Source: Caldicellulosiruptor diazotrophicus (lineage in GTDB: Bacteria > Bacillota > Thermoanaerobacteria > Caldicellulosiruptorales > Caldicellulosiruptoraceae). Taken from it: a stretch of 64,000 nucleotides of DNA. The notes below the pieces were generated by a model, which saw nothing but the letters and a program-made list of their open reading frames with translations, was not told the DNA's origin and did no database searches. Positions within the stretch are counted from its first letter, which is position 1; the number at the start of each line of letters is the position of its first letter. The stretch is from contig NZ_AP024480.1 in the NCBI RefSeq assembly GCF_017347585.1, positions 1,944,001 to 2,008,000 on the forward strand, written 5' to 3'. Position numbers and translations under genes: made by a program. This document shows, one piece after another, positions 1-14,150 of this stretch.

Positions 1-555
1 TATCATCAAAGCAACAACAATAGCAATTATTGGGTCTATAATGTACACATGTGTAAGTTTTATTGCAACAAGCCCTAAGAATACTCCAAATGAGGTAAAC
101 ACATCTGTGAAAAGATGCATAGCATCTGCTTCCAAAGCCACAGAATCTGTTTTTTTAGCTACTTTAAAGAGTTTTGAAGATATAAAAAGGTTTACAACGG
201 CTGAGATTAGCATAACCAAAAGCCCTGCTTCTATTTTCTCAACTTCTCCACCCTTTACAATCTTTTTTATTGCCTCATAAATAATCATAGCTGCTGCTAA
301 AAATATTAATATTGCCTCAAATGCACCAGAGACATTTTCAAACTTGCCATGACCAAAAGGATGGTCACTGTCTGCTGGTTTTCTTGCTTGTTTGATGGAA
401 AAATACGCAACCAAGCTTGCTAAAAGGTCAATGCCAGAATGAATCGCTTCTGATATAACAGACACAGAACCCATAATGCTGCCTGCAATAAGTTTGAATA
501 AAACCAATGCTGTATTAGAAAAAACTGACAAAAGCGCCGCACCTTGTTTTTCCAT
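1..555 (-). CDS. Cation diffusion facilitator (CDF) family transporter, C-terminus cut by window edge
   Basis: This is the N-terminal 185 residues or so of a CDF metal/proton antiporter in the cytoplasmic membrane, exporting divalent cations such as Zn, Co, Ni, Fe or Mn. The translation contains the family pattern SDHPFGHGK, an early transmembrane helix with SEAIHSGID (a CDF metal-site region) and a later EADAMHLFTDV segment holding the second His/Asp pair. The ATG at 555 follows AAGG and an in-frame stop lies just upstream, so the start is secure. The gene follows a structured leader RNA (611-730) that could control it. Which metal it handles cannot be read from the visible part. Confidence 0.9.
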   Translation of the reverse strand, partial: MEKQGAALLSVFSNTALVLFKLIAGSIMGSVSVISEAIHSGIDLLASLVAYFSIKQARKPADSDHPFGHGKFENVSGAFEAILIFLAAAMIIYEAIKKIVKGGEVEKIEAGLLVMLISAVVNLFISSKLFKVAKKTDSVALEADAMHLFTDVFTSFGVFLGLVAIKLTHVYIIDPIIAIVVALMI

Positions 556-610
556 ATACCTTCATTAAAACCCCTTTCATTATAATCTTCTTCGCAAAAC
601 TATTAAAACA

Positions 611-730
611 ATAAAAAAATCCTGCCAAGACTCATGTTTTGTAAAAAACATGGGTCCCGCAGGATTTTTAATCCCTGCTGCCTGGTAAAATCCCCAGGCC
701 CGAAAAGAGCTTTTGAACTCTTTTCTGACC
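611..730 (-). promoter_or_regulatory. Structured leader RNA with terminator/antiterminator architecture upstream of the CDF gene
   Basis: Read on the minus strand, four perfect or near-perfect hairpins follow each other: 725-702 (8 bp), 699-680 (6 bp), 678-659 (8 bp with one bulge) and 652-633 (8 bp). A 4-bp pairing of 730-727 with 656-653 would close the first three into a four-way junction. The arm 666-659 can instead pair perfectly with 625-618, giving a stem followed by seven U residues, which is an intrinsic terminator. Mutually exclusive pairing of one arm is typical of a transcription attenuator or riboswitch. I could not match it to a known class. It contains GGGAC and GCAGCAGGG, which faintly recall NiCo (czcD) RNAs, but the full consensus is missing. 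Confidence 0.6.
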
Positions 731-762
731 GCTTTTTAATAGAGAATATTAACTTATTCATG

Positions 763-1632
763 TTACTTGAGCTTTATTTTAACATCAAAGAGGTCTTTTG
801 TAAAGATTTTTTTAGCATCTGAAAAGTTATTTATTGTTGTAAAAAGAAGCTTTTCACAAATGATTTCAACCATGTTAATAGGCAAATTGATAAAGGGTGT
901 CACGTTATATATACATATATCTTTCAGAGGAAGAAAATCAACACAAATCTCAGAAAGAAAAAAGAACTTCTTCAAAAATTCAAAATCTTCTACCACACCC
1001 TTTTCAGGATAGCATACCATCCCTCTTTTTAACGCATAAGCTGTCTTGTCTAACTCTCTGAACACAAACACTAGATCAGCATTTTCAAACAATTTCTCTT
1101 CTTCCCAGCAGTTTATTATAACTGTTCCGAACTCTCCCAAAAGTTCATCAGCTATTTTTGTCTCTTGAAATGAAGCAAATGAAGTATAAAGAATATCTGT
1201 ATTTTCCGCAAGCTCATATAAAAGTCCATTTTTTTTAGCTTTTTCAAGTCCAATTATTCCTATTTTTCTGTTTTTTAAACGCTGACCATATTTTTTTAAT
1301 ACTTCTCTTACAATATAATATGCAATAAAACAATTAATGTGAATGTTTTGTTCATACGTCCAATCAAAATGTATAACTCTTCCTTTTCTTTGTTGGTCAA
1401 TAAAATGTCTTATTTTTTTATGTTTTTTAGAAATATTTTTTGTTTCTGGAAACATGAAAAATTCCAATCTCATCTCTATTCCACTAATTAGCCTTATATA
1501 TTCTTCAAACTTAGGTTGTGAATTTGCAACCAAAATTTTTCTTAAAAATAGAGGAAATAACTTTGCATATTCTGGAACGAAAATCCTATTTTCACTTTCT
1601 AAAACAAATGTAACAGTATAAATTTTTATCAA
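763..1632 (-). CDS. Conserved hypothetical protein, possibly Rossmann-like
   Basis: I do not recognise this 289-residue protein. The middle (about 120-200) alternates short hydrophobic strands and helices, with IGIIGLEKAKKNG followed by ILYTS, VIINCW and LVFVFRE, which resembles a nucleotide-binding Rossmann-like fold but lacks a clear GxGxxG. There is no signal peptide or membrane segment. It starts with TTG 20 bases after the stop of the quinate dehydrogenase-like gene and has no strong ribosome binding site, so translational coupling to that gene is likely. Function is unknown; the next gene in the same direction is the CDF transporter. Confidence 0.6.
   Translation of the reverse strand: MIKIYTVTFVLESENRIFVPEYAKLFPLFLRKILVANSQPKFEEYIRLISGIEMRLEFFMFPETKNISKKHKKIRHFIDQQRKGRVIHFDWTYEQNIHINCFIAYYIVREVLKKYGQRLKNRKIGIIGLEKAKKNGLLYELAENTDILYTSFASFQETKIADELLGEFGTVIINCWEEEKLFENADLVFVFRELDKTAYALKRGMVCYPEKGVVEDFEFLKKFFFLSEICVDFLPLKDICIYNVTPFINLPINMVEIICEKLLFTTINNFSDAKKIFTKDLFDVKIKLK
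776..804 (-). promoter_or_regulatory. Candidate sigma-A promoter for the CDF leader RNA
   Basis: On the minus strand TTTACA (804-799) is separated by 17 bases from TAAAAT (781-776), inside the 3' end of the preceding coding region. Initiation near 769 would put the structured leader at the 5' end of the CDF transcript. Confidence 0.45.
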
Positions 1633-14020: not shown

Positions 14021-14150
14021 TCCATCCTTCGGGGCGGGGTGAAATTCCCCACTGGCGGTAAAAGCCCGCGAGCAAAAGCCTTTTTGGCTTTTGCAGAACC
14101 GGTGGAATTCCGGTGCCAACGGTTACAGTCCGGATGGGAGAAGGAATGGA
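14021..14150 (+). promoter_or_regulatory. FMN riboswitch (RFN element)
   Basis: The conserved RFN segments appear in order: TTCGGGGCGGGGTGAAATTC, CCCCACTGGCGGT, AGCCCGCGAGC, a variable hairpin (GCAAAAGCC with GGCTTTTGC), CCGGTGGAATTCCGGTGCC, and CAACGGTTACAGTCCGGATG ending in GGGAGAAG. It binds flavin mononucleotide and here probably acts by transcription termination, since a terminator follows at 14193-14237. Confidence 0.97.

Follow-up and report, generated by a model that had tools for sequence, protein, structure and literature searches.

The leader of the CDF exporter gene at one end of the window (the whole stretch of 64,000 nucleotides of Caldicellulosiruptor diazotrophicus DNA that was analysed) is very probably a NiCo-class riboswitch, running on the minus strand from about position 769 to 556 and acting as an ON switch by transcription attenuation. 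At the level of sequence, its assignment as a somewhat divergent member of the known NiCo class, with modest lineage-specific changes and not a new kind of switch, is confirmed and well supported. The first-pass annotation, made from the letters of the sequence, had described an unassigned riboswitch-type attenuator, of an architecture proper to metal sensing, in front of a metal exporter; the attenuator and its setting were borne out, whereas the idea that it does not fit the NiCo class is contradicted by a match to Rfam family RF02683 above the curated cut-off. What was computed here is the class membership by covariance model, the conservation and covariation, the two exclusive folds, the conserved promoter and the gene linkage; metal binding, the direction of the switch and the identity of the metal are drawn from the literature on the NiCo class.

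The leader occupies some 210 nt of the minus strand between the end of the upstream gene (763) and the start of the CDF exporter (555), and the upstream gene cluster runs in the same direction. The transcript start at about 769 was placed from the -10 element. The features are the following:

776 to 804, minus strand: promoter, with -35 TTTACA (804-799), a 17-nt spacer and extended -10 TG.TAAAAT (781-776), found by pattern scan inside the end of the upstream gene
650 to 742, minus strand: NiCo (czcD) riboswitch aptamer, by RF02683 and the independent covariance model R1
727 to 730, minus strand: 5' strand of P1, GGUC, pairing with GACC at 656-653 in the fold; 97.9% of cells paired in 13 family genomes
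702 to 725, minus strand: P2 hairpin of 10 pairs (725-716/711-702) from the fold, without the 2-nt GG bulge of the Rfam consensus
700 to 701, minus strand: GG of J2/3, at the position of metal-binding guanines G46/G47; invariant in 13 family genomes
680 to 699, minus strand: P3 hairpin of 6 pairs (699-694/685-680), from the fold
659 to 678, minus strand: P4 hairpin of 6 pairs (678-673/664-659) from the fold, whose 3' arm (664-659) is the shared arm
657 to 658, minus strand: GG of J4/1, at the position of metal-binding guanines G87/G88; invariant
615 to 669, minus strand: intrinsic terminator stem-loop from the fold, mutually exclusive with P4 and P1
613 to 619, minus strand: U7 tract of the terminator, its first five U also pairing with the A tract 669-665
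1 to 555, minus strand: CDF cation exporter, 5' part of a gene of 285 aa in full that runs off the window

RF02683, whose gathering score is 37, matches positions 742-650 of the minus strand at 38.0 bits, with an E-value of 5.8e-5 over the whole window. No other plausible Rfam match appeared even at a loose threshold, and no other riboswitch family matched between 450 and 1000 at E up to 5. The Rfam scan proposed in the first-pass annotation did find a family; however, it is the NiCo family, which had been set aside at first reading. The hesitation is understandable, since 8 of the 12 closest relatives score below the Rfam cut-off, the gathering score being reached by 5 of the 13 family members. 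As the margin is just one bit, membership was tested with R1, a covariance model trained on 17 NiCo RNAs from other families within the phylum, the host family contributing none. R1 located the window copy at 30.5 bits, with E about 1e-6 over 184 kb. Each of the 12 relatives was recovered as well, at 27.8-37.3 bits, and a single spurious match had an E-value of 0.89. The host genome carries one NiCo copy only.

Left unconstrained, the 742-650 segment folds into a four-way junction of P1 to P4 at -36.2 kcal/mol (z = -4.9; none of 200 shuffles was as good), in agreement with the earlier reading of three minus-strand hairpins closed by a short helix. The junction residues A, GG, A and GG are all present and the GGGAC core is invariant. 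Junction guanines coordinate the metal in the solved NiCo structure from an Erysipelotrichaceae bacterium (PDB 4RUM; PMC7689651). Those of J2/3 and J4/1 (G45-47, G87 and G88) find their counterparts in GGG and GGG of the window RNA, both invariant, the numbers having been mapped by junction position and not by superposition.

The fold of the full leader is the terminator (-52.3 kcal/mol, z = -6.1), in which the 3' arm of P4 is used again, together with the GGGAC core and the 3' P1 strand. An arm shared with a perfect terminator stem had been noted at first reading: the sharing holds, as 666-659 (AAUCCUGC) pairs with GCAGGAUU and seven U follow, but only the outer stem is perfect, and the stem as a whole counts 24 pairs, interrupted by a mismatch at 653/632 and a bulge at 626. 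In each of the 13 family genomes the full leader has the terminator as its minimum free energy state (97.9% of cells paired), and there it is favoured over the fold that keeps the aptamer by 5.3-17.7 kcal/mol at 37°C and by 3.7-10.3 kcal/mol at 70°C, and each of the 13 leaders has a tract of five or more U. When growing transcripts of the window leader were folded, P1 and P4 appeared first and were displaced once the terminator strand emerged. Within the family the terminator pairs hardly covary (1 pair; 99 of 500 shuffles did as well) because their sequence is nearly invariant. The window terminator was not picked up by a terminator pattern scan, whose rules allow no bulge and only short loops. 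The same mechanism, an ON switch with an overlapping terminator, has been published for the NiCo class (PMC7689651; PMC7917058), and from this literature and the exclusivity of terminator and aptamer we infer the ON direction: without bound ligand the leader ends in its terminator fold, and read-through would follow if the junction were stabilised.

According to the first-pass annotation, a lack of covariation among homologous leaders or the absence of the structure before orthologous CDF genes would speak against it; both covariation and structure were found. A NiCo leader precedes the same 285-aa CDF exporter in 13 of 13 host-family genomes, from two genera. In the family aptamer alignment, 98.1% of cells are paired and five pairs, three in P2 and two in P3, show changes on both sides (0 of 500 shuffles; 0 pairs in slid controls); over 39 NiCo RNAs, 20 of 25 pairs covary, in 212 cells (0 of 500 shuffles; slid controls far lower), counts that were judged by shuffles and slid partners and are not tree-corrected, unlike those of R-scape. 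Plain MAFFT misaligned P2 and P3 of divergent and canonical aptamers because the P2 bulge is missing, and a model-based alignment was used instead.

The NiCo element was absent from all 24 other genomes of the host's taxonomic class, and 98 of the 398 genomes sampled across the phylum have it. Of 80 CDF homologues belonging to other phyla, 9 have a clear NiCo match just upstream and the majority do not. The linkage therefore does not extend to every close CDF homologue; the presence of the element before CDF homologues in very different phyla supports a functional link. The nine loci (L029, L030, L031, L054, L068, L072, L075, L089 and L093) are labelled Lentisphaerae, Bacteroidales, Armatimonadetes, Chloroflexi, Raymondbacteria and others, and are mostly metagenome bins whose labels may be wrong. 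A cobalamin riboswitch (L091:1443-1626, plus strand) was seen about 1.4 kb before a CDF homologue in a Thermoanaerobacterales bin. With a model trained on the family, a few similar compact copies were found elsewhere, such as those before CDF genes in L133 and L137, which score 26.2 and 25.7 bits with RF02683. These two and L135, before an ATPase-like frame, are compact NiCo-like leaders at 24-26 bits, well below the Rfam cut-off, that keep the core GG pairs and an overlapping terminator; they are probably real NiCo members missed by Rfam.

The promoter at 804-776 had also been pointed out in the first-pass annotation, and the site is indeed present. The pattern scan alone is not above chance (6 found, 5.0 expected); TTTACA-N17-TAAAAT is kept in all 13 family genomes. 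In a test that counted invariant degenerate codons, the last 14 codons of the upstream gene were codon-identical at 8 of 8 invariant residues, against 7 of 30 over its remaining length (p = 1.3e-4), and the figures became 8 of 9 against 40 of 112 (p = 0.003) when the two most divergent or shortest rows were left out. In one relative, G007 (L008:1440-1520, plus strand), the upstream gene has been cut to a remnant of about 18 codons, with promoter, aptamer and terminator intact. This remnant and the conservation of the putative site are good evidence for a dedicated exporter promoter, and they argue against a structure that merely ends the upstream cluster as an intrinsic terminator, without sensing. 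A terminator is there, the cluster points towards it and its read-through would be stopped too; however, a plain terminator has no need for a covarying four-way junction of 90 nt or for invariant unpaired GG pairs, a conserved promoter stands between it and the cluster, and G007 has kept the whole arrangement after losing nearly all of the last upstream gene. This alternative, which the first reading had left standing, is unsupported, and we regard it as scarcely credible.

A new or highly variant class distinct from NiCo, as first proposed, has in its favour the low Rfam score, with 8 of 12 relatives below the cut-off, and three departures from the NiCo consensus: P2, A+U-rich at its base, is one continuous helix in which the 2-nt GG bulge is lacking; P1 runs straight as GGUC/GACC, with no asymmetric internal loop; and no ACAGUACAA block is found 5' of P1. 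The window terminator also takes the 3' strand of P1, a further difference from the known NiCo (czcD) riboswitch. On the other side, the order of the helices P1 to P4 in the four-way junction, the A/GG/A/GG junction, the GGGAC core, a terminator that overlaps and uses the 3' arm of P4 and a downstream CDF exporter all match RF02683, and the independent NiCo model finds the window copy. The P2 bulge is also absent from L136 (42.2 bits), and the 5' ACAGUA block from L114, L115, L121 and L122, all of them NiCo members above the cut-off, so that the departures were not treated as defining. A separate class is highly improbable. The departures sit in the arms and the metal site is spared; the changes in the arms probably explain why 8 of the 13 family members fall below the Rfam cut-off. 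The Mn(II) riboswitch (yybP-ykoY) likewise senses metal, uses a four-way junction, stands before metal homeostasis genes and controls exporters, and the best-scoring equivalog model for the exporter is MntE, at 131 bits under a cut-off of 500. However, the yybP-ykoY model has no match in the leader at E up to 5 (450-1000), as is the case for every other riboswitch family, and a Mn(II) or another Rfam metal riboswitch has a negligible probability. A docked tertiary interface is present in the Mn class and absent in NiCo (PMC6754395).

In the NiCo attenuation model, RNA polymerase would start at the 804-776 promoter and make the aptamer (742-650) first, which would fold into the four-way junction. 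With too little metal, the strand 640-615 would capture the GGGAC core together with the 3' arm of P4 and the 3' P1 strand to build the U7-tailed terminator, such that transcription would stop before the CDF exporter. With metal bound, the junction guanines (701-700 and 658-657) would hold P1 and P4 together and the terminator would not form; read-through would then allow the exporter to be made and the metal to be exported. The proposed ligand is Ni(II)/Co(II); Fe(II) is an alternative suggested by more recent work on the class. The cell would most likely produce the pump only once a metal, for instance nickel, cobalt or iron, has accumulated.

The downstream gene is a CDF exporter starting at 555, as had been annotated at first: it matches PF01545 (E 1.1e-48) and TIGR01297 (167.7 bits), and the solved structures of FieF, of the FieF/YiiP transporters, align with it over its full length (E 8.5e-37). 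Where FieF has its first site-A aspartate, the aligned residue of the exporter is His39, which gives H39-D43/H147-D151 (HD-HD) and not DD-HD. HD-HD is the common Zn/Co-type CDF site, not a Mn-type one; the site in this exporter does not settle which metal is moved. The NiCo class was first described as Ni/Co-specific; responses to Fe(II) have since been reported from anaerobic experiments, and reviews discuss Fe(II) as a likely cellular ligand of the class (PMC7689651; PMC9434800). A more specific proposal, which we consider rather unlikely, is a lineage-specific NiCo subtype in which the family-wide rebuilding of P1 and P2 would have changed metal selectivity or affinity, for example towards Fe(II) in an anaerobe. 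Related copies from other families of this phylum, bulge-less or compact, would lie well below the Rfam cut-off and be missed.

As a finding, this is an ordinary, textbook case of a known switch. Through it, a CDF exporter is given a regulator and a likely ligand class in an entire bacterial family, and the Rfam NiCo cut-off is shown to miss likely real members, 8 of 13 here plus the candidates before CDF and ATPase-like genes elsewhere. As the natural metal of the NiCo class is debated (Ni/Co versus Fe(II)), the divergent natural variants before one orthologous exporter make a usable test set for this question.

Other riboswitches were also seen. Beyond the window, but still in the host's own genome, a fluoride riboswitch (RF01734, 38.9 bits; L003:437-500, minus strand) lies directly after the CDF gene, as it does in four relatives (L012, L013, L014 and L015), such that one exporter gene is flanked by two ion-sensing riboswitches, NiCo and fluoride. 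Elsewhere in the window, an FMN riboswitch was found at 14021-14149 of the plus strand (118.6 bits).
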